Source: Bordetella genomosp. 12 (GTDB lineage Bacteria; Pseudomonadota; Gammaproteobacteria; Burkholderiales; Burkholderiaceae_B). Taken from it: 64,000 nucleotides of DNA. Below the pieces are notes generated by a model. The model worked only from the letters and a program-made list of their open reading frames with translations. It made no database searches and was not told the DNA's origin. Every line of letters begins with the position of its first letter. Position 1 is the first letter of the stretch. Shown piece by piece: positions 2,674-60,139 of the stretch. The stretch spans positions 1-64,000 of the forward strand of contig NZ_NEVU01000001.1 of assembly GCF_002261355.1 (NCBI RefSeq). Reading direction: 5' to 3'. A program made the translations under genes and the position numbers.

Positions 2674-3501
2674 TTACTTGCGCTTGCGCCGTTGAACGAT
2701 CATATTGTTCGTCCGCTTGTTGCGACGGGTCTTGAAACCCTTCGCCGGAGTACCCCACGGGCTGACCGGCTCGCGAGCTTCACCGGTACGGCCCTCACCA
2801 CCACCGTGCGGGTGGTCGATCGGGTTCATGGCGACACCACGGACCGTCGGGCGGATACCGCGCCAACGCATGGCACCGGCCTTACCGATTTGGCGCAGGC
2901 TGTGTTCTTCGTTACCGACTTCACCGATGGTGGCGCGGCACTCAATGTGCACGCGACGCACTTCACCAGAGCGCAGACGGACCTGAGCGTAGGTGCCTTC
3001 ACGGGCCATCAGGACGGCGGAGGCGCCGGCCGAACGAACCATCTGAGCACCCTTGCCGGGGATCATCTCGACGCAGTGAATCGTCGTACCCACCGGGATG
3101 TTGCGGATGGGCAGCGTGTTGCCGGCGCGGATCGGGGCTTCGACGCCCGAGATCAGCGTGGCACCCACTTCCACACCACGCGGAGCGATGATGTAGCGAC
3201 GCTCGCCATCGGCGTAGCACAGCAGGGCGATGTGAGCCGTGCGGTTGGGGTCATATTCCAGACGCTCAACCTTCGCAGGGATACCGTCCTTGTTGCGACG
3301 GAAGTCGACAACACGGTAGTGCTGCTTATGGCCACCGCCACGATGACGGATCGTGATGTGACCGTTGTTGTTACGGCCCGAACCACGGATCTTCTTTTCG
3401 AGCAGAGCGGCGTGAGGCGCACCCTTGTGCAGCTTGGGGCTGACGACCTTCACCATGCCACGGCGGCCAGCCGAGGTCGGCTTTACTTTAACGAGGGCCA
3501 T
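2674..3501 (-). CDS. rplB: 50S ribosomal protein L2
   Basis: This 275-residue protein is needed for subunit association and peptidyl-transferase activity. It has an OB-like N-terminal half, an SH3-like C-terminal half and the universally conserved loop [16 protein letters not shown], which carries the functionally important histidine near residue 230. The basic C-terminus [19 protein letters not shown] is typical. It abuts rplW with no spacer. Confidence 0.98.
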
Positions 3502-7073: not shown

Positions 7074-9176
7074 TTACTTGGCCCGAGCGGCGATGACTTC
7101 GTCAGCGACGTTCTTGGGAGCCTCGGAGTAATGCTTGAATTCCATCGTGTACGTGGCACGACCTTGCGTCAGCGAACGCAGGTTGGTGGCGTAACCGAAC
7201 ATCTCGGCCAGAGGAACCTCTGCCTTGATGATCTTACCGCCGCCGACCATATCGTCCATACCCTGGACCATGCCGCGGCGCGAGGACAGATCGCCCATCA
7301 CGCTGCCAGCGTAGTCTTCCGGCGTTTCGACTTCAACAGCCATCATCGGTTCGAGCAGGACCGGGCTGGCCTTGCGCATACCTTCCTTGAAAGCCATCGA
7401 GCCGGCCATCTTGAACGCGTTTTCGTTCGAGTCCACATCGTGGTACGAACCAAAGAACAGCGTGACCTTCACGTCCACGACCGGGTAGCCAGCCAGAATA
7501 CCTGCAGGCAGGGTTTCCTGGATGCCCTTGTCCACCGCGGGGATGAATTCGCGAGGAACCACACCGCCCTTGATGGCATCGACGAACTCGAAGCCGCCGC
7601 CCGGGGGCAACGGTTCGACCTTGAGCACCACGTGACCGTACTGACCGCGACCGCCCGACTGCTTGACGAACTTGCCTTCGACTTCTTCGCAGACCTTACG
7701 GATGGTTTCGCGATAGGCCACCTGGGGCTTGCCGACGTTGGCTTCCACGCCGAATTCGCGCTTCATGCGGTCAACAAGAATTTCCAGGTGCAGCTCGCCC
7801 ATGCCCGAAATGATGGTCTGGCCGGATTCTTCGTCGCTGCGCACGCGGAACGACGGATCTTCCTGAGCCAGACGCGACAGGGCCAGGCCCATCTTTTCCT
7901 GGTCAGCCTTCGACTTGGGTTCGACGGCCTGCGAAATCACAGGCTCGGGGAACTCCATGCGCTCCAGCGTGACATGGGAATCGATGTCGCACAGCGTTTC
8001 GCCGGTGGTCACGTCCTTCAGACCCACCACGGCGGCGATGTCGCCAGCGAGAACTTCCTTGATTTCTTCGCGGTTGTTCGCGTGCATCTGCAGAATACGG
8101 CCGATACGCTCTTTCTTGCCCTTGATGGGGTTGAAAACCGTGTCGCCCGACTTCAGCACGCCCGAGTAGACGCGCACGAAGGTCAACTGACCCACGAACG
8201 GATCGCTCATCAGCTTGAACGCCAGCGCCGAGAACTTCTCTTCGTCGTTGGCGCTGCGCTTGACTTCGTTGCCGTTGTCATCGGTGCCTTCGACCGGCGG
8301 AATATCCACAGGCGAGGGCAGGTAGTCGATGACCGCGTCCAGCATGCGCTGCACGCCCTTGTTCTTGAAGGCGGTGCCGCACAGCATCGGCTGGATTTCG
8401 CCAGCGATGGTGCGTTGACGGATGGCGTTGTTGATCTCAGCCTCGTCCAGCGAACCGGTTTCGAGGTACTTGTTCATCAGTTCCTCGGACGATTCGGCGG
8501 CCGCTTCGACCAGCTTCTCGTGCCACTCTTCAGCGTCGGCTTGCAGTTCGGCCGGGATGTCGGCGTAGTCGAACTTCGTGCCTTGGCTGGCTTCGTCCCA
8601 AATGATGGCCTTCATCTTGACCAGATCGATCACGCCAGTGAACGTGTCTTCGGCGCCGATGGGGATCACGATGGGCACGGGGTTGGCACGCAGGCGGGTG
8701 CGCAGCTGCTCGTAGACCTTGAAGAAGTTGGCGCCAGTACGGTCCATCTTGTTCACGAAGGCCAGACGGGGCACACCGTACTTGTTGGCTTGGCGCCAAA
8801 CGGTTTCCGATTGAGGCTGAACGCCGCCCACGGCGCAGTACACCATGCAAGCACCGTCCAGGACGCGCATGGAACGCTCCACCTCGATGGTGAAGTCCAC
8901 GTGCCCCGGGGTGTCGATGATGTTGATGCGGTGCTCGGGATAGTTGCCGGCCATGCCGCGCCAAAACGCCGTCGTAGCCGCCGACGTAATGGTGATGCCA
9001 CGCTCTTGCTCTTGCTCCATCCAGTCCATGGTGGCTGCGCCATCATGCACTTCGCCAATCTTGTGATTGACGCCGGTATAGAACAGGATGCGTTCGGTCG
9101 TGGTGGTCTTCCCTGCATCGATGTGCGCAGAGATACCAATGTTGCGATAGCGCTCGATCGGGGTTTTGCGGGCCAT
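7074..9176 (-). CDS. fusA: elongation factor G
   Basis: This 700-residue translocase GTPase moves tRNAs and mRNA after peptide-bond formation and helps recycle ribosomes with RRF. The G domain has [12 protein letters not shown] (from residue 17), DTPGHVDF and NKMD; domains II-V follow at the usual lengths, including the domain IV segment [11 protein letters not shown]. It lies 18 bp after rpsG in the str operon order. Confidence 0.99.
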
Positions 9177-36961: not shown

Positions 36962-36996
36962 GGTGTGGGGGAGAGCAAGAATGGACTTCAGTGGGC

Positions 36997-37002
36997 ATTA
37001 TA
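36997..37002 (-). promoter_or_regulatory. mnmG promoter -10 element
   Basis: A perfect TATAAT lies 36 bp before the mnmG start. No good -35 is present 16-18 bases upstream: that position falls in the first parS site, so ParB binding could interfere with or replace activator contacts here. Confidence 0.55.
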
Positions 37003-37018
37003 GAGTCAGGCCCCCCGA

Positions 37019-37034
37019 TGTTTCACGTGAAACA
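37019..37034. promoter_or_regulatory. parS site 1
   Basis: TGTTTCACGTGAAACA is the exact parS consensus known from many bacteria. It is centred about 65 bp upstream of mnmG and overlaps the mnmG promoter. Confidence 0.95.
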
Positions 37035-37146
37035 TCGTAAGCCTGCCAAATCCGTGGGTTTCCCGGCACGAATTGAACACCCTCGCCAGGACTACTGGAT
37101 GAATACTCAGGCCTCTGATTTCACCCGGAACCTGCGGCGTTAGGGA

Positions 37147-37162
37147 TGTTCCACGTGGAACA
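37147..37162. promoter_or_regulatory. parS site 2 (variant)
   Basis: TGTTCCACGTGGAACA is a perfect 16-bp palindrome that differs from the parS consensus by one symmetric pair (T to C, A to G). Confidence 0.88.
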
Positions 37163-37186
37163 TATGCCGCATGCTGACTGCATCTA

Positions 37187-37202
37187 TGTTCCACGTGGAA
37201 CA
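37187..37202. promoter_or_regulatory. parS site 3 (variant)
   Basis: TGTTCCACGTGGAACA, identical to site 2 and exactly 40 bp from it. Confidence 0.88.
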
Positions 37203-37230
37203 TAGGGCAAGCGACGCGATCAACCGATGA

Positions 37231-37246
37231 TGTTTCACGTGAAACA
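37231..37246. promoter_or_regulatory. parS site 4
   Basis: TGTTTCACGTGAAACA, the exact consensus, 44 bp from site 3. Confidence 0.95.
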
Positions 37247-37746
37247 TCAAAATGGTGTACCAAGACATTTGCGGGCAACGCATTCGCGAACGTCCAGTGG
37301 ATGAGGCCTAAGTGTGAGCCGTAGGCGCGGACGTTCAGTGTAGACACATTGGACCGACACACAGGGAAGAAGTTCCGTCCAGACCCTGACGAGAGCCTTG
37401 ACGTAAGAGGCTGGCAAAACTATCGCAGCGATAGCCAGGGTGTTTTGTCCACAGGATTATTCACCGAAACCGAAAGTGAGCAACTCTGTTGATAAGTCCT
37501 GCCGTGCAGGAAAGATGACATATTGCATGCAGCTTGGTCGGGGGCACTGGATTAATCCCCAACACTATCCACAAGCTCGATCTATCAACAGCCGTGACAA
37601 GCCCCGACGACCCAGCACAGAAAATGGGGATATCTTTGTGAAGAATAGGCCGTTCAATGCGGTGGAAAACTCGGTCTGGCGAGCTGCCCTACTTAGGAAG
37701 TTATCCCCGAACTGAAAAACATCCTGCCCAGACATTGCAGCTAATT

Positions 37747-37769
37747 CCGTGATTAATCACGGTTTTTTT
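37747..37769 (+). terminator. small terminator-like palindrome in the gene-free region
   Basis: CCGTGATTAATCACGG (37747-37762) is a perfect palindrome: a 6-bp stem with TTAA as the loop, followed by seven T. It has the form of a plus-strand terminator although no plus-strand gene precedes it; it could end an untranslated transcript or act as a DNA structure near the DnaA boxes. Confidence 0.5.
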
Positions 37770-37929
37770 GCGCACTCGCCGTGTTAGCGCAAGCATTGCT
37801 CAGCAAAAGCGGCCTATCTCGCCTGGGTAAAACTATGTGGAAATCGTCCGCCAGATTTTGTGCAGAACTTGGGTTTCACCCGGCCGAACGGGAGCGTCGG
37901 ACTGCCCTGAAAACGCTGTCCCGGAATTT

Positions 37930-37950
37930 TTATCCACAAAGTTATCCAGA
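37930..37950 (+). promoter_or_regulatory. DnaA box pair
   Basis: A perfect DnaA box TTATCCACA (37930-37938) is followed 3 bases later by TTATCCAGA (37942-37950), one mismatch, in the same orientation. Confidence 0.6.
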
Positions 37951-38066
37951 GGCTGCGCAGCCTCCGGAACAGCCCGGAACAAAGCGAAATCAAGGCACAA
38001 ACGAGAATTCGAACGGGAGGAGATCCAGTTATGTTAGTGAGCACTAACTAACCGTCCGCAAACGAC

Positions 38067-38347: not shown

Positions 38348-38674
38348 TTTTATAGCGTCCTGAAAAAAAACACGAATTGCAAATGAATCAAGGACGCTGA
38401 CACCAACTCATCGTACAACGGTCACCGCTGGACGCTTCGTTTGCCGCTTGCCGCCAATGGCTTTAACCGGGCTTGCGCACTGCTTGAATCAACTGCAGGG
38501 CCAGCATACTCATCCCATCTTGCGCGTACATATTGTTGTTTACCCGTATGTGGCTTTTTTTCACTTGTCTCACAAGCGAAACCCTCTGCACGCCATACCT
38601 TGCCACGCATTTTGAACCAGCCGGGCCAGTCATAAGCTCATGCCCACATGGGCTTTACCGTTTTTGGGATACTT
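38348..38674. promoter_or_regulatory. spacer between divergent csp and aminotransferase genes
   Basis: This 327-bp divergent intergenic region holds the csp leader hairpin at 38354-38398 and the aminotransferase ribosome-binding site (GGGA 6 bases before 38675). I see no further gene. A run of T (38550-38558) and AT-rich bases around 38525-38560 suggest promoter DNA, but no clean -35/-10 pair stood out. Confidence 0.5.
38354..38398 (-). promoter_or_regulatory. csp leader hairpin hiding the Shine-Dalgarno
   Basis: AGCGTCCT at 38398-38391 (minus-strand reading) can pair perfectly over 8 bp with AGGACGCT at 38361-38354. The second arm contains the only good Shine-Dalgarno (AGGA). The loop is 29 nt and very A/T rich. 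Confidence 0.5.
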
Positions 38675-39889
38675 ATGCCCAACACCAGCTGCCCATCCAC
38701 GCCCCCTACCCTTTCACAAGCCATGATCCGCTCCAAACTGCCCGATGTCGGGACCACTATTTTCACCATCATGAGCCGCCTGGCCATCGATCATCAGGCC
38801 ATCAACCTGGGCCAGGGGTTCCCGGACTTCGATCCCGATCCCAAGCTGCTCGGGCTGGTTACCAAGGCGATGGCCGACGGGCACAACCAGTACCCCTATA
38901 TGCCGGGTGTCGCGCCGCTGCGCGCAGCCATCGCGGACAAAGTGGCTACGCTCTACGGGCATCGCTATGACCCGGAAACCGAAGTCACCGTCACCAGCGG
39001 CGCGACGGAAGCACTCATGGCCACGGTGCTGGCTGCAGTGGGCAGCGGCGACGAGGTCATCGTCATCGAACCTTGCTACGACTCCTACCTGCCCGCCATC
39101 CGCCTGGCCGGTGCCACCGCCGTACCAGTGCCCATGCGCGCCCCCACGACGGAAGACCCGCACTACCGCATCGATTGGCAGCGCGTGCGTGACGCCATCA
39201 CACCGCGCAGCCGCCTGTTGATGCTCAACTTTCCGCACAACCCCACCGGCGCCATCCTCGACGACAGCGATCTGGACGCGCTGGAAACCATTGTGCGCGA
39301 CACGGGCATTCTGCTGCTGGCCGATGAGGTCTATGAACACATCGTGTTCGATGGCAAGGCGCACGCCAGCATCGCGCGCCGGCCGTTGCTGGCAGAGCAT
39401 GCGTTTGTGATCTCGTCTTTCGGCAAGACTTACCACACGACGGGTTGGAAGATCGGTTATTGCTGCGCGCCGCGTCAACTCAGCGCGGAGCTGCGCAAAG
39501 TGCATCAGTTCATGGTGTTCACCGTGTCCTCACCCATGCAGTTCGCGCTGGCTGCGTTCATGGCGGATCCCAAACCCTATCTGGAGCTGCCGGCTTTCTA
39601 CGAAGCCAAACGCAAGCGCCTGGCCGATGGGCTGGCCGGCACGCGCTTTCGCGTCCTGCCCAGCCCCGGTACGTTCTTCATGCTGGCCGATTACAGCGAC
39701 ATCTCAGGCCAGAACGAAGCCGAGTTCGCACGCAGCCTGACGATCGATCACGGCGTGACCGTCATCCCGGTATCGGCCTTCTACCGCGACCCCGACGCGC
39801 AAGCCTCCAACCACAGCCTGGTGCGCTTTTGCTTCGCCAAGAAAGACGCCACCCTGGATGCCGCTCTCGAGCGTCTGGCCAAGGTATAA
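38675..39889 (+). CDS. PLP-dependent aminotransferase, methionine/kynurenine type
   Basis: This protein of about 404 residues is a class I/II fold-type I aminotransferase. The PLP-binding Lys is in SSFGKTYHTTGWKIGYCCAP (about residue 251); NFPHNPTGAIL and LLADEVYEHIVF are the usual PLP contacts, and VRFCFAKKD holds the carboxylate Arg. The end-to-end pattern (INLGQGFPDFDPDPKL) resembles the YbdL group, which uses methionine and kynurenine. I chose ATG 38675 for its GGGA; a start at 38723 is also possible. Confidence 0.85.
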   Translation: MPNTSCPSTPPTLSQAMIRSKLPDVGTTIFTIMSRLAIDHQAINLGQGFPDFDPDPKLLGLVTKAMADGHNQYPYMPGVAPLRAAIADKVATLYGHRYDPETEVTVTSGATEALMATVLAAVGSGDEVIVIEPCYDSYLPAIRLAGATAVPVPMRAPTTEDPHYRIDWQRVRDAITPRSRLLMLNFPHNPTGAILDDSDLDALETIVRDTGILLLADEVYEHIVFDGKAHASIARRPLLAEHAFVISSFGKTYHTTGWKIGYCCAPRQLSAELRKVHQFMVFTVSSPMQFALAAFMADPKPYLELPAFYEAKRKRLADGLAGTRFRVLPSPGTFFMLADYSDISGQNEAEFARSLTIDHGVTVIPVSAFYRDPDAQASNHSLVRFCFAKKDATLDAALERLAKV

Positions 39890-43074: not shown

Positions 43075-44532
43075 TCAAATCGGCCAGTTTTTCTGACGCA
43101 ACGCAGCATCCCGCGGGAAACCTAGGGTAAACACCAGTGTTGCGCGCAAGCCCGGACCAGGCTGGCGATTCTCCAGCTTGAGCGTGCCGCCGTGGATACC
43201 GACGATGGTGCCCACGATGGCCAGGCCCAGCCCGGCACCCGGTTTGTTCTTGCCCGCCGTCCCCCGGCGAAACCGCACGCTGGCGTGCTCGATATCCTCG
43301 GCCGACATGCCCGGACCGGCGTCTTCCACGCATATCCAGGCATGGTCATCATCCCCGCCGATCTGCACGGTGACTTCGCTGCCGGCCGGGCTGTAACGCA
43401 AGGCGTTGTCCAGCAGATTGGACAGCGCCTCGCGCAACAGGCCTTCCACTGCCTGGATGCAGACTGGTTTGGCCGGCCGTTCGAGGCCGAAATCGATTTG
43501 CTTCTGGCGGATGGCCGGCAGCAGTGACCTGCCGACACTGTCGGCCAAGGCGGCCAGATCGACGTTTTCCAGCGGCAGCCCCCCTTCGCTCCAGGGGGCG
43601 TCCTTGGCGCGGGCCAGGGTCAGCATCTGGTTGGTGGTGCGTACGGCCCTGTCCAGGCCTTCCCGCATGGCCAATAAGGCGGTATGGATCTCGTGGGGAT
43701 CGGTTTCGCGCAAGGCATAGGACGTCTGGGTGCGCAAAACGGACAGCGGCGTGCGCAATTGATGCGAGGCGTCATCGAGAAACTGCCGCTGCACCCTCGC
43801 CTGAGCCTCAAAACGGCCCGTATGGAGATTAATTGCCTCCAGGAGGGGGAGGACCTCACCCGGAACATCGGACGCGCTGATGGGGCTTAAATCGTCCGCA
43901 GAACGGCTGGCCACTTCATCCCTGAGCCGCTCAAGGGGTCTGAGAGCCATCAGAACGCTCCATATGACCGCCAAAACACTGATGAGCAGCATGACGACGT
44001 CCCGCTCCACGGAACGCAACAGCGCCCGATTAAGGAAGTCCTCGCGGGTTTCCAGCCCTTCGGCGACCTGGATGATCACCCGCCCCCCCTTATCCGCATA
44101 CAGGGGGGGATCCATGGGCCGAGCCAGCGCAGCCACGCGCAACGGCTGGCCGTCATAGGTGGCATAGAAAAATTCGGGTTTGCCGGATTGCAGCCGGCGC
44201 TCGGGCAGCGGCAGGCCGGGATTGCCGATTTCGGCCAGCCCGTCCTCGGTCGCTACCCGGTAATACACGTTGCCATTGGCCGTGAGCTCGAAGAATTCCA
44301 GCATGAGGTACGGCAGCTCCAGACTTAATCCACCGCTGGCTGTGGATATGTTGTGGTCGATGGAACGCAGTGCGCCGGCAAGTGCGCGATCGTAGGCAAT
44401 ATCGACCTGTTCGCGCAGTTGCTGGTTCGACAGCCACAGGCCTGCGACCAGGATAGTCACCAGAGCCGGGATCAACCACAGCAGCAAAGTGGCGCGCAAA
44501 GTGCGCGCCACCGGCGTATCACGAGTTTTCAA
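43075..44532 (-). CDS. tctE: sensor histidine kinase, TctE/BctE type
   Basis: This 485-residue kinase has two TMs (about 14-33 and 178-197) flanking a periplasmic domain of the TctE N-terminal type (STASGGLSLELPYLMLEFFEL, RLQSGKPEFFYATYDGQPLR). A HAMP-like linker is followed by the phospho-His in LDDASHQLRTPLSVLR, then NLLDNALRYSP, EDAGPGMS and GAGLGLAIVG. It overlaps the regulator gene by 14 bases. It is expected to respond to tricarboxylate-loaded or free TctC and to activate the transporter. Confidence 0.9.
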   Translation of the reverse strand: MKTRDTPVARTLRATLLLWLIPALVTILVAGLWLSNQQLREQVDIAYDRALAGALRSIDHNISTASGGLSLELPYLMLEFFELTANGNVYYRVATEDGLAEIGNPGLPLPERRLQSGKPEFFYATYDGQPLRVAALARPMDPPLYADKGGRVIIQVAEGLETREDFLNRALLRSVERDVVMLLISVLAVIWSVLMALRPLERLRDEVASRSADDLSPISASDVPGEVLPLLEAINLHTGRFEAQARVQRQFLDDASHQLRTPLSVLRTQTSYALRETDPHEIHTALLAMREGLDRAVRTTNQMLTLARAKDAPWSEGGLPLENVDLAALADSVGRSLLPAIRQKQIDFGLERPAKPVCIQAVEGLLREALSNLLDNALRYSPAGSEVTVQIGGDDDHAWICVEDAGPGMSAEDIEHASVRFRRGTAGKNKPGAGLGLAIVGTIVGIHGGTLKLENRQPGPGLRATLVFTLGFPRDAALRQKNWPI

Positions 44533-45199
44533 CAGCCACCTCCAGGCTGTAGCCCATTCCCCGCATCGTCACGATTTGTACACCAGTGCCGGCGAGTTTT
44601 TTTCGCAGCCGGTGGACCAGGACTTCGATGGCTTCCAGGTTGACATCACTGTCTTCTCCCTGGATGCGATCCAGGATTTGCTGCTTGTTAATAGGTTCGC
44701 CGCTGCGCTGGATGAGTACGCGCAGCACCGCGTATTCCTTTGGGGATAAGTGCAGGTTCTGTCCACTGACCGTAAATCGTTGCGCGGAAGTATCCAGAAC
44801 CAGGTTGCCCAATGACAAGCGCGGGTGGTCGCGTCCGCGGCTGCGCCGGATGAGTGCTGTCAGCCGGGCTTCCAGTTCTTCCAGTACGAAAGGTTTGGGC
44901 AAAAAATCATCCGCGCCTTCGTGCAGCGTACCCACTCTTTCAGCCAGTGAATCTCTTGCCGTGAGCACGAGAACCGGTGTGCGGTCGTCACGAGACCGCA
45001 TTTTGGTGAGCAAAGTGTGCCCATCCATGCCCGGCAGACCGAGATCGAGGATGACGGCATCGAATTCTTCGAGCGCCAGTCGGCGTTCGGCAAGCAGGCC
45101 ATTGTCGGCCCAGTCCACCACGAAGCCCGCATGGCGGGCAAGGCTGCGGGACAACCAGTGAGCCAGGTCGGCTTCATCTTCTATCAAAAGGATGCGCAT
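44519..45199 (-). CDS. tctD: response regulator, TctD/BctD type
   Basis: This 226-residue OmpR-family regulator has a receiver with Glu7-Asp8-Glu9, phosphoacceptor Asp52 (VILDLGLPGMDG), Thr in VLTARDS and Lys in LPKPF. The winged helix ends in RGMGYSLEV. It is the first gene of the tctDE pair and lies next to the AT-rich gap with DnaA boxes. Its likely target is the tctC promoter (42978-43074 region). Confidence 0.92.
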   Translation of the reverse strand: MRILLIEDEADLAHWLSRSLARHAGFVVDWADNGLLAERRLALEEFDAVILDLGLPGMDGHTLLTKMRSRDDRTPVLVLTARDSLAERVGTLHEGADDFLPKPFVLEELEARLTALIRRSRGRDHPRLSLGNLVLDTSAQRFTVSGQNLHLSPKEYAVLRVLIQRSGEPINKQQILDRIQGEDSDVNLEAIEVLVHRLRKKLAGTGVQIVTMRGMGYSLEVAVENS

Positions 45200-45291
45200 C
45201 GCGGGGACCCCGTGGGGTGGTGGCGGTGGGAAAGCATGTTTTGGCTTTTCCTTTTTTTTTCTTTATAAAAAGATTAATGATTAATAAGGGC

Positions 45292-45300
45292 TGTGGATAA
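45292..45300 (-). promoter_or_regulatory. DnaA box
   Basis: TGTGGATAA is the exact reverse complement of the consensus TTATCCACA and directly follows the AT-rich tract. Confidence 0.7.
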
Positions 45301-45381
45301 CTACCTTAACGCTCAAAACCGTATCTTTTTCAACAGCTTGAGCGAATTTTAGGCTGTGCAAGAACTCTGTTTGGCAAGAAA

Positions 45382-45439
45382 GCCCAAGTTGAACAAGTTT
45401 TTGCCCTGATGCCAAAAGAGCAGGTTGTTCAACTTGGGC
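45382..45439. repeat. 15-bp perfect inverted repeat
   Basis: GCCCAAGTTGAACAA (45382-45396) and TTGTTCAACTTGGGC (45425-45439) are exact inverse copies separated by 28 bp, and the spacer has a further TTTTG/CAAAA pairing. It lies between the two perfect DnaA boxes. It has no T tract and no flanking gene end, so it is not an ordinary terminator. Confidence 0.85.
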
Positions 45440-45472
45440 GCACAGAATGTGCACAACTGCGCCACCCAGTAG

Positions 45473-45481
45473 TTATCCACA
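45473..45481 (+). promoter_or_regulatory. DnaA box
   Basis: A perfect TTATCCACA, opposite in orientation to the box at 45292 and 172 bp from it. Confidence 0.7.
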
Positions 45482-45652
45482 GGTCGGTTTCTGGCAACCG
45501 CCTCTTTTTCGGACCTGAAGGCAGGGGAAAAGTGCCTTGCGCAGGCCGGCAAAAACGCCCTCGTGAAGCGGCCAAATCGGGCCCAGGAGCGATGAAAACA
45601 ACGGCTGGCGAGCCGCCCGCCCGCCGGCGCGCCAAGCGCTTACCGGGGGCGT

Positions 45653-45673
45653 GGTGATCAAAAAATGATCACC
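45653..45673. repeat. GATC-containing hairpin
   Basis: GGTGATCA (45653-45660) and TGATCACC (45666-45673) form a perfect 8-bp stem with a loop of five A. Each arm carries TGATCA, so two GATC sites face each other. Confidence 0.6.
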
Positions 45674-45724
45674 AAAAAAGCCGCGCCAAGTTTGTTTTTT
45701 GCTTAGGGGCGGCAGATTCAGGCG

Positions 45725-45754
45725 AAAAAAAACCGCCGTCTGGCGACGGCGGTT
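45725..45754 (-). terminator. maeB terminator
   Basis: AACCGCCGTC (45731-45740) pairs perfectly with GACGGCGGTT (45745-45754). On the minus strand it is followed by a run of eight T, 20 bp after the maeB stop codon. Confidence 0.92.
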
Positions 45755-45774
45755 GCTTGCGAAAGTACTGGGGT

Positions 45775-48069
45775 TCAGGCGGGCCGGTTGGCGTCGATAA
45801 CAGTCAGCGCGGCCATGTTGACGATGCGGCGCACGGTAGCGCTGGAAGTCAGAATATTGACCGGTGCATTGGCGCCCAGCAGGAAGGGCCCCACGGCCAC
45901 ATTGCCCCCGGCTGCCGTCTTGAGCAGGTTGTAGGCGATGTTGCCCGAATCCACATTGGGGCAGACGAGCAGATTGGCCGATCCCTTGAGCGTGGACGAG
46001 GGCAGGATGCGCAGGCGCAGAGCTTCGTCCAGCGCGCAATCGCCATGCATTTCGCCATCGACTTCCAGATCCGGAGCTTGCGCGCGCACGAGATCGAGCG
46101 CTTCGCGCATTTTGCTGCCTGAGGCCGAGCTGCCCGAGCCGAAGTTGGAGCGCGAGAGCAAAGCGATCTTGGGCGCCAGATTCAAACGCTTCATTTCTTC
46201 GGCCGCCGCGATGGTGAACTCCGCGATCTGTTCGGCGCTGGGGTTCTCGTTCACGTGCGTGTCGACCAGCGCTACCGTGCGTTGATCCAACAGCAGAATA
46301 TTCATGGCGGCATAGGTCTGGGCGCCCGGTCGCATGCCCAGCACTTCATCGATGAAGCGCAAATGATCGTGGTAGGCGCCCACCGCTCCGCAGACCATGC
46401 CGTCGGCGTCGCCCAGACGCACCATCATGGCGCCGATCAATGTCATGCGGCGGCGCATTTCCACCCGCGCCATTTCCTTGGTGATGCCGCGGCGGTTCAT
46501 CAGTTCCCAGTAGGTCGTCCAGTACTGGTGGAAACGCTCGTCGTACTCTGGGTTGGTGACTTCAACATCTTCGCCCAGGCGCAGGCGCAGGCCGAATTTC
46601 TCGATGCGCGACATCAGCACCGACGGACGGCCAACCAGGATGGGCTTGGCGAGTTTTTCATCGACGATGACTTGCACGGCGCGCAGCACGCGTTCGTCTT
46701 CACCTTCGGTAAACACGATGCGCGCCCGGCCTTGATCACGCACCACCTGTTTCGCGATGGCGAACAGGGGTTTCATGAAGGCGCCCGAGTGGTAGACGAA
46801 TTGCTGCAATTGCTCGACATAGGCGTCGAGATCGGCGATGGGCCGCGTGGCCACGCCATCGTCCATGGCGGCGCGGGCCACGGCCGGCGCGATGCGTGCA
46901 ATCAGCCGCGGATCGAAGGGTTTGGGGATGATGTATTCGGGCCCGAAGGACAGATCGTACGTGCCATAGGCCGCAGCCACGACATCATTGGCTTCTTCTT
47001 GGGCCAGGCCCGCGATAGCGTAGACCGCGGCACGCTCCATGGCCGGCGTGATGGTGGTCGCGCCCACGTCCAGCGCCCCCCGGAAAATGTAGGGGAAGCA
47101 CAGCACGTTATTGACCTGATTGGGGTAATCCGAGCGGCCGGTGGCCATCACGATGTCGTCGCGCACGGCGTGCGCGGCTTCCGGCAGGATCTCGGGCGTG
47201 GGATTGGCCAGCGCCAGGATGAGCGGACGCGCGGCCATGGCGGCCACCATTTCGGGCTTGAGCACACCGCCGGCCGACAGCCCCAGGAAGACATCGGCGT
47301 CGGTGATGACGTCAGCCAGCTTGCGCGCCTCGGTTTTCTGCGCAAAACGCGCCTTGTCCGGATCCATCAAGGTGGTGCGGCCTTCGTAGACCACGCCCTC
47401 GATGTCGGTGACCCAGACGTTTTCCAGCGGCAGACCCAGATCCACCATCAAGCTCAGGCAGGCCAGCGCGGCGGCGCCTGCGCCCGAAGCAACCACTTTG
47501 ACCTTGGTGATGTCCTTGCCCACGACCTTCAGGCCGTTGATGAAGGCCGCGCTCACGGTGATGGCGGTGCCGTGCTGATCATCATGGAACACCGGGATCT
47601 TCATGCGCTCGCGCAGCTTGCGCTCGACGGTGAAGCACTCGGGCGCTTTAATGTCCTCGAGGTTGATGCCGCCGAACGTGGGCTCCAGGCCGGCGATGAT
47701 CTCGACCAGCTTGTCCGGATCGGTTTCATTGATCTCGATGTCGAACACGTCCAGGCCGGCGAACTTCTTGAACAGCACGGCCTTGCCTTCCATCACGGGC
47801 TTGGAGGCCAGCGCGCCGATATTGCCCAGCCCCAGCACGGCGGTGCCGTTGGAGATCACTCCCACCAGATTGCCGCGCGCGGTATAGCGAAAGGCGTTCA
47901 GGGGGTCATCGACGATTTCTTCACAGGCTGCCGCCACGCCGGGCGTGTAAGCCAGCCCCAGATCGCGTTGCGTCACCAGCGGCTTGGAGGCGGTGATGGC
48001 GATTTTGCCCGGGGTGGGAAACTCGTGATAGTCCAGCGCTGCCTGGCGGTCGTTGGGATGTTGGGGCAT
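45775..48069 (-). CDS. maeB: NADP-dependent malic enzyme with phosphotransacetylase-like domain
   Basis: This 764-residue fusion enzyme has an N-terminal malic domain (about 20-160, [14 protein letters not shown] and [14 protein letters not shown]), an NAD(P)-binding domain (about 165-400, [20 protein letters not shown]) and a C-terminal phosphate acetyl/butyryltransferase-like domain (about 430-760) that is usually regulatory. It turns malate into pyruvate and CO2 with NADPH, which suits growth on C4 and tricarboxylic acids next to the citrate-type transporter. It is divergent from a LysR regulator. Confidence 0.95.
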
Positions 48070-58662: not shown

Positions 58663-59862
58663 ATGAAAACCTTAGACGAAATCGAACGCGCTCACGGTGA
58701 CCTGACTGCCTTGCGGCGCGATATCCACGCGCATCCGGAATTGGCCTTTCAGGAGACCCGTACTTCCAACCTGGTGGCCGAGCGCTTGCGCGCGCTGGGG
58801 CTGGAAGTCCACACCGGGCTGGGGAAAACCGGGGTGGTGGGCGTATTGCGTGCCGGTGAGGGCAAGAAATCCGTGGGTCTGCGCGCCGACATGGATGCCC
58901 TGCCCATGCCTGAGCACAATCGCTTCGAGCACAAGTCGACCATCGCCGGGCGCATGCACGGGTGTGGCCACGATGGGCACACCGCGATTTTGCTGGGTGC
59001 GGCGCAATACCTGGCTGCGCATCCCGACTTCGACGGCACGGTGAATTTCATTTTCCAGCCCGCCGAGGAAGGCGGCAACGCGGGCGCGCGCGCCATGATG
59101 GCCGATGGCCTGTTCGAGCGCTTTCCCTGCGATGCGGTGTTCGGCCTGCACAATATGCCTGGCATGCCGGTCAATCAGTTCGGCTTTCGCACGGGACCCA
59201 CGATGGCGTCGAGCAACCGCTGGGATATCGTCATCAAGGGCCAGGGCGGGCACGCCGCCCAGCCCCATGCGGCGGTCGATCCCATCGTGATCGCCTCGGA
59301 GATGGTGCAGGCCTTGCAGACCGTGATCTCCCGGGGACGCAATCCCCTGGACCCCGCGGTGCTGTCCATCACGCAGATCCACGCGGGTGATGCTTACAAC
59401 GTCATTCCGGGCGAAGCGGTGTTGCGGGGCACGGTGCGCACCTACACCCTGGAGGCATTGGACAAAATCGAAGCCGATATGCGGCGCATCGCCACCACCC
59501 TGCCCCAGGTCTATGGCGGCAGCGGCGAACTGGATTTCGTGCGGGCCTATCCGCCCTTGGTCAATTGGGAGAAGGAGACCGCGTTTGCCACCCGGATCGC
59601 CGAGGAGGTGTTCGGGCGGGAAAACGTCGATCCGCATATGCCGCAATTTATGGGCGCCGAAGATTTTTCCTTTTTTCTGGAAAAAGTGCCGGGTTGCTAT
59701 CTGTTCCTGGGAAATGGCGATGGCGACCACCGCCTGCAGCGTTATCACGGGATGGGTCCATGCCAATTGCACAACCCCAATTACGACTTCAATGACGCCT
59801 TGTTGCCGGTCGGCGCCACGTATTGGGTCAAATTGGTGCAGGCCTTCCTGCCGAGAGGCTGA
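58663..59862 (+). CDS. M20 family amidohydrolase (hippurate/N-acyl amino acid type)
   Basis: This 399-residue cytoplasmic zinc or manganese hydrolase has metal ligands in MHGCGHDGHTAILLG, the general base pair Glu-Glu in QPAEEGGNAG and the C-terminal His in PQFMGAEDFSFF. The dimerisation insert lies at about 180-295. I chose ATG 58663 (MKTLDEIERAHGDLTALRRD); the frame is open to 58498 inside the upstream ATPase gene. It lies 47 bp after DppF and is probably co-transcribed, suggesting that the imported compound is an N-acylated amino acid or peptide. Confidence 0.92.
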   Translation: MKTLDEIERAHGDLTALRRDIHAHPELAFQETRTSNLVAERLRALGLEVHTGLGKTGVVGVLRAGEGKKSVGLRADMDALPMPEHNRFEHKSTIAGRMHGCGHDGHTAILLGAAQYLAAHPDFDGTVNFIFQPAEEGGNAGARAMMADGLFERFPCDAVFGLHNMPGMPVNQFGFRTGPTMASSNRWDIVIKGQGGHAAQPHAAVDPIVIASEMVQALQTVISRGRNPLDPAVLSITQIHAGDAYNVIPGEAVLRGTVRTYTLEALDKIEADMRRIATTLPQVYGGSGELDFVRAYPPLVNWEKETAFATRIAEEVFGRENVDPHMPQFMGAEDFSFFLEKVPGCYLFLGNGDGDHRLQRYHGMGPCQLHNPNYDFNDALLPVGATYWVKLVQAFLPRG

Positions 59863-60139
59863 AGTTCTGCACAGGCTGTACACAGCTTATCCACCGGCTG
59901 CTCACATTTTGCTCACAAGCTTGTTCCCAAGGTTATCAACAGCCTCTGTCCTGGGAAACCGAGGTGTGTCAGGGGGGGATAACCACAAGGCGGCGAGGCG
60001 CGGCTGCGCACAGAACAAGCGGCGCGCCATATGACTGCAGGGATTGAACAAAGGCGGATTTATTCGTTTGCCGATGGGTTCGGGGTTTTCATAATCCGTA
60101 CATGGCTTCCGCATGAGGAGGCCGCCTTCAGGAAACCCC
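59863..60139. other. intergenic region with near-consensus DnaA boxes
   Basis: This 277-bp region after the amidohydrolase gene holds TTATCCACC (59887-59895) and TTATCAACA (59933-59941), each one mismatch from a DnaA box, and GGGGATAAC near 59977. No terminator was clear. It is the third gap in the window with such a cluster. Confidence 0.45.

Follow-up and report, generated by a model that had tools for sequence, protein, structure and literature searches.

A very likely chromosomal origin of replication in Bordetella, of E. coli-type plan and away from dnaA

The closest described system for the locus reported here is the oriC of Escherichia coli (NC_000913), which lies between mnmG and mioC, has its AT-rich side at the R1 end, and carries two strong DnaA boxes, R1 on the minus strand and R4 on the plus strand, whose starts are 180 bp apart. 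Nearer to the organism under study, and according to the available passages of the papers concerned, a Bordetella pertussis oriC-region sequence from M. Weigand is already in use (PMC7774529); in Kerstersia gyiorum SWMUKG01, a bacterium that has been set beside Bordetella in comparisons, Ori-Finder placed a putative oriC some 31 kb short of the record's end (PMC6461280); and the exact position of oriC1 in Burkholderia cenocepacia was called uncertain by the authors (PMC4948915). The B. pertussis region belongs to the same genus as our locus, and those passages give neither its sequence nor its place. Other available passages define a basal unwinding system as a DnaA box, a spacer of up to 16 bases, and at least three NAN trios (PMC8287927); describe putative double origins in DoriC, with more than one origin-like region per bacterial chromosome (Gao 2015, PMC4403523); and report a 2022 inversion survey that took dnaA as the zero point and in which B. 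pertussis was consistently offset (PMC9584773). DoriC, which probably holds Bordetella predictions, lay outside our literature search, which, among the papers listed, showed no experimental map of a Bordetella origin and no tandem oriC modules in the family.

Here, we examine a 575-bp gap between tctD and maeB in a 64-kb window (the whole stretch of DNA analysed), which forms the start of contig C3 in a 4.5-Mb Bordetella genome of three contigs. By tctD protein identity, the nearest species are Bordetella pseudohinzii (98%), hinzii (97%), and trematum (94%). The original prediction had proposed the entire gap as a candidate chromosomal origin. The site stood up to analysis, and the extent did not: the core is about 250 bp long (Table 1), and the right half of the gap, with the maeB terminator, is excluded from it. 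This core is very probably the chromosomal origin, oriC, of the window's Bordetella. We read it in this way because the GC skew switches there, the spacing of the DnaA boxes is nearly fixed, the DNA beside one box is the least stable in the window, and the core recurs where the skew switches in relatives, other genera included. The features that mark an oriC (a minus-to-plus skew, a non-coding DnaA-box cluster, an AT-rich unwinding element, and conservation at the switch of relatives) occur here together, and the element is with high confidence an oriC, of an ordinary kind, built on the E. coli-type plan and sited away from dnaA.

Table 1. Features of the candidate origin, its surroundings, and related loci (window positions unless a locus is named)
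Feature	Position	Strand	Basis or remark
oriC core, unwinding element to R4, conserved module	45235..45491	+	profile match and conservation in relatives
DNA unwinding element: T-tract, TATAAAAAGA, tandem GATTAAT	45238..45287		least stable 50 bp of 64 kb
Perfect DnaA box TTATCCACA, R1 position	45292..45300	-	box scan; kept in relatives
IHF-like site TTTCAACAGCTTG, 1 mismatch, conserved position	45328..45340	+	TCA and TT columns conserved
Perfect 15-bp inverted repeat, arms 45382-45396 / 45425-45439	45382..45439		inner parts kept in relatives
DnaA-like box TTGTGCACA	45448..45456	-	relatives commonly have TGTGCACA
Perfect DnaA box TTATCCACA, R4 position	45473..45481	+	start 181 bp from R1 start
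Perfect GATC hairpin	45653..45673		172 bp past right box, outside conserved core
Terminator-like hairpin behind maeB	45731..45754	-	
tctD-type response regulator, left neighbour	44519..45199	-	
maeB malic enzyme, right neighbour in window	45775..48069	-	not constant in relatives
Aminotransferase left of module	38648-39889	rightward	
Four parS-like palindromes upstream of mnmG	37019..37246		
Rival site: degenerate DnaA-box cluster with one perfect box	37445..37950		
Opposite-strand module pairs, 67-88 kb apart (G069, G141)	L231 10092-10340 with L235 18593-18842; L369 with L371		

The anatomy of the core follows E. coli closely in plan. Two perfect DnaA boxes in opposite orientation are present as predicted, with the same strand assignment, the same AT-rich side, and the same orientation relative to a leftward mnmG as in E. 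coli oriC. What places the locus in the E. coli type is its pair of strong boxes, inverted and separated by about 180 bp, together with an unwinding element at the R1 end. Between 45200 and 45500, three further boxes have one mismatch to TTWTNCACA. Across the window, 26 boxes with at most one mismatch were counted against 5.0 expected. Perfect boxes number three in the window and 16 in the 4.5-Mb genome, compared with 13 for a reversed control pattern; it is the pairing of the perfect boxes that is special, and not their number. The predicted AT-rich tract with a doubled GATTAAT is also there, the repeats starting in tandem at 45272 and 45279, and the duplex-stability minima of the 64-kb window all fall in this region, at 45257-45286 for 30 bp, 45238-45287 for 50 bp, and 45251-45330 for 80 bp. 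The least stable 50 bp stop 4 bases before R1. Outward from R1, a 4-base spacer is followed by four central-A trios, more than the three of the basal unwinding system, a match that is weak because the pattern is loose in AT-rich DNA. IHF-like sites with one mismatch have a background of 31 per window, and the same scan gave none in E. coli oriC.

The locus differs from E. coli oriC in its content of GATC, the site for Dam/SeqA: E. coli oriC has 11 such sites, and the core has 0. The original prediction had also listed a 15-bp inverted repeat and a GATC hairpin as parts of the origin. Both exist, and the repeat lies inside the core; the hairpin lies outside it. As an origin part the hairpin was rejected, being absent from the conserved stretch; it holds two of the window's 411 GATC sites. 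The gap contains no open reading frame of at least 100 aa wholly within it, in agreement with its description as gene-free. The leftward run of genes noted on its left side has an exception in the aminotransferase.

If the E. coli model applies, DnaA would stay on the strong outer boxes, R1 and R4, and would spread from there over the weak inner sites, aided by a bend at the IHF-like site. The unstable AT-rich element to the left of R1 would then be opened by DnaA, helicases would load at the opened element, and forks would leave in both directions.

Conservation singles out the same stretch. With the 575-bp gap as query, matches were found in 15 of 41 genomes (the window's own included) and, except for two terminator pieces, were restricted to about 45201-45499; within the genus, the core was matched in 12 of 14 other genomes at 69-92% identity. 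A profile of 37 rows, made without near relatives (one row, L239, was assigned to the same genus by the tool), matched 45235-45491 at E 1e-45. The near-invariance of R1 in the alignment is in part an effect of row selection, since the box pattern had served to find most of the rows. In two Bordetella petrii strains (L073 and L085, upstream of tctD), R1 is replaced by TGTGGACAA. A covariance model, sequence-only and built from 43 modules, was run on 150 family genomes: it found the core in 137 of them, which represent 38 of 39 genera, and had no match in the other 13. The window's own genome was matched once. No second module was detected in that genome by the profile, in 864 kb searched, or by the model, in the whole genome. 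The next-best profile match in those 864 kb has E 0.017 and is partial; it corresponds to a small cluster of DnaA-like boxes at 59651-59957.

The spacing of the boxes is conserved as well. Of 250 family genomes, 145 (from 32 of 43 genera) have a perfect box pair with a gap of 160-185 bp and 105 lack it, and a reversed control gave none; in the order, a gap of 165-178 was found in 7 of 200 genomes, four of those in the Bordetella family. Among 34 modules from 29 loci, one genome each, the R1–R4 spacing was 178-182 in 33, these genomes having been picked for possessing the pair and spacings of 169-194 having been allowed; a larger count of 129 modules includes repeated loci and was not used. Although the spacing is that of E. 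coli, no sequence similarity to E. coli oriC is detectable with the Bordetella-family profile (E 9.5), a combination suggestive of selection acting on the geometry as such.

Skew evidence for the site had rested on five hand-counted pairs of G and C. All five were exact on recount, and single 60-base lines are weak evidence for skew, confounded as they are with strand. Because third codon positions depend strongly on gene strand in their skew, the skew of each gene was modelled as a function of its strand and its side. The predicted change at the site was borne out by the cumulative skew, which has its minimum at 44.1 kb (44101) in 124 kb. No other minus-to-plus switch was seen in 40 sampled 20-kb stretches: all 12 on contig C1 were negative, all 15 on C3 beyond the window were positive, and those on C2 comprised eight positive ones up to 1.02 Mb followed by five negative ones from 1.06 Mb (the first at -0.005). 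Together with the window, and on the assumption that the contigs run in the order C1-C3-C2, this amounts to a single switch of origin type and a single one of terminus type. Skew varies along the left arm, about 20-29 kb of the window being near zero or slightly positive. Change-point fits placed the turn at 44660 in the window's genome, -632 bp from R1; the corresponding offsets are -1204 bp in G014, +345 bp in G251, and +1581 bp in G124, relatives that all have a fitting gene context; in the four genomes, the minus-to-plus turn is thus at most 1.6 kb from the left box.

These fits bear directly on the rival reading that the origin lies upstream of mnmG, at 37.0-38.0 kb beside parS, with the tctD-maeB site a side cluster. 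Nowhere in the window are degenerate DnaA boxes more densely clustered than in this region (37.4-37.95 kb), which also holds one perfect box and four palindromes that we take, in motif and in name, to be parS-like; a 24-bp double-box piece of it is identical in two other genomes (G006 and G009), and in one relative (G018) the module itself is directly beside mnmG (L275). However, between mnmG and R1 the skew is that of the left arm in each of the four genomes (-0.042 to -0.066), and in strand-adjusted all-position fits the R1 gap was the best breakpoint in every one of them, whereas the mnmG-upstream site was worse by 22.4 units in the window's genome, 28.7 in G014, 17.3 in G251, and 11.6 in G124. 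Third-position fits, which are weaker, put R1 0.0-0.9 from the best and the mnmG site 12.3, 13.8, and 11.9 worse in three genomes and only 0.9 worse in G124; in G251, where the 20 kb left of mnmG have a skew of +0.006, the nominal third-position best is 46 kb away, and R1 is 0.9 worse. Further, 36962-38040 was matched in 12 of 41 genomes, the window's own among them, and the matches are either short or lower in identity (for instance, 67-72% against 92% for the core in G005, and 71-82% against 86% in G014). It has no profile match, and the lowest duplex stability in the window is found elsewhere. We therefore regard an origin upstream of mnmG as highly improbable.

An origin at rpmH/dnaA, as in many bacteria, is more improbable still and can be set aside with near certainty. 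The dnaA gene, at about 66 kb in contig C3 and 21 kb from the module, comes with one perfect DnaA box (C3:66067); yet the locus lies outside the span of compatible breakpoints in the all-position fit of the window's genome (-2.1 to +6.0 kb of R1), there is no significant profile match at dnaA, and dnaA and dnaN overlap, by 4 bases. A skew minimum at 37-38 kb or near rpmH, which the original prediction had named as grounds for giving the site up, was looked for and not found. The distance of 21 kb would resemble that of the putative oriC in K. gyiorum, which the available passages give by coordinates only, if the record of that genome starts at dnaA.

The two DnaA-box clusters could also act together, in a two-part origin that extends the oriC reading: the core at 45.3 kb would open, and the boxes and parS at 37.0-38.0 kb would help. 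Both clusters lie within one 8-kb origin region, and pieces of the 37.0-38.0 kb part recur in relatives, although that part is weakly conserved and its separation of 7.5 kb exceeds that of known two-part origins, which, in the available passages, reach about 2 kb (PMC4285127). We consider this arrangement unlikely, if less so than an origin upstream of mnmG. The sequences at 37019-37246 and 37445-37950 may serve in partition and, in addition, titrate DnaA or help the origin.

Since the module lies directly upstream of tctD, it might instead be a DnaA-titrating site (datA-like), a DnaA-reactivating site (DARS-like), or a DnaA-controlled tctD promoter, and no origin at all. The module, however, also adjoins the aminotransferase where a genome has no tct genes at that place (for example, L266, L268, and L269) and coincides with the skew switch, and there is very little probability left for this explanation. 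At 80 named tctD loci, the module was directly upstream in 46, with the aminotransferase beyond in all 46, and the box pair was present at 180-182 bp in 44 of the 80. No module was found at the other 34, of which nine are named Candidimonas, Castellaniella, Verticiella, Alcaligenaceae, or similar and the rest belong to other groups by title. The recurring neighbours are thus tctD and the aminotransferase, with maeB only in part.

As the probable oriC, the module can be followed through a varying gene context. In the window, unlike in E. coli, mnmG and the origin are 8 kb apart, and the aminotransferase and the tct genes lie between them. Of 20 family loci read with their flanks, 17 have the aminotransferase next to the module, and at four of these the tct operon and tctDE intervene, just as they do in the window; mnmG without the aminotransferase was seen at two, and at one locus (L267) neither module nor markers were found at the cut-offs used. 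The order mnmG, aminotransferase, (tct), module recurs in other genera. In the relative G018, the module directly adjoins mnmG (L275, 9896-10140), with none of the intervening genes, which is the E. coli arrangement.

Outside the family, the covariance model found weaker matches, and in the order as a whole it matched 76 of 150 genomes, six of them of the Bordetella family. We read 15 sister-family loci with their flanks, five of which were chosen for a match near the record start. In nine of the 15, the match is just behind dnaA, unlike in the window's genome, and although weaker it is significant in the dnaA-dnaN gap of six (L349, L350, L351, L355, L362, and L363); for L352 and L353, a match in that gap is given by model coordinates only. 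One match (L358) lies 5.5 kb from mnmG, and five of the 15 loci were not placed. Common DnaA boxes and AT content could inflate these weaker sister-family matches. Because dnaA and dnaN overlap in the window's genome and the sister-family matches lie behind dnaA, the origin has probably moved. Judged from these sequences, it most likely left the dnaA-dnaN gap in an ancestor of the Bordetella family, the direction being our inference. One sister-family locus (L357) has a match just behind dnaA (3127-3223) and another 5.5 kb away (8663-8823), and may represent an intermediate stage in the move of the origin from its former place to the present one. The likely origin of the window's Bordetella and its relatives is fixed to a core of about 250 bp away from dnaA, and an exact origin is a better reference point for the chromosome than dnaA.

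Many relatives have more than one module. Two or more model matches were found in 57 of the 150 family genomes (57 of the 137 with a match). Two modules are also present in Schauerella fraxinea (locus L108). Among the matches listed, both places are given for 38 genomes: 34 pairs lie on the same strand, 0.4-4.3 kb apart, and four on opposite strands, of which three belong to one genus (g56) at 67-88 kb and one to another genome (G061) at 1.5 kb. In g56, three of seven genomes have two matches. In one of them (G069), the cumulative skew has a minimum at each module (90.1 and 178.6 kb) and reaches a maximum near 110 kb, and in another (G141), for which three shorter stretches were read, a minus-to-plus change occurs at both modules. 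An inversion of about 20 kb explains the g56 skew as well as two origins do. We tentatively suggest, as a reading that is possible rather than probable, that the family origin is a movable, self-contained R1-to-R4 cassette that passed from the dnaA-dnaN gap to the mnmG-aminotransferase side, that it is present in more than one copy, mostly in tandem, in roughly two fifths of matched genomes, and that some wild chromosomes (g56) may use two origins. Compared with the double origins of DoriC, the tandem copies of this family are whole R1-R4 cassettes in many genera, whereas the window's genome has one. The relocation and the doubled cassettes are the interesting part of these observations, and the doubled cassettes of relatives would make two-origin use in wild bacteria directly testable.

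In the 12 pairs that were read, the copies are 51-69% identical, and perfect R1 and R4 boxes are present in both copies of eight. Support in a tree of twin modules was too poor to tell an old duplication from repeated ones. Ten of the pairs are in tandem, 0.4-3.6 kb apart and 51-64% identical (L260, L247, L246, L259, L279, L285, L249, L245, L250, and L254), and seven of these ten have a perfect R1 and R4 in both copies.
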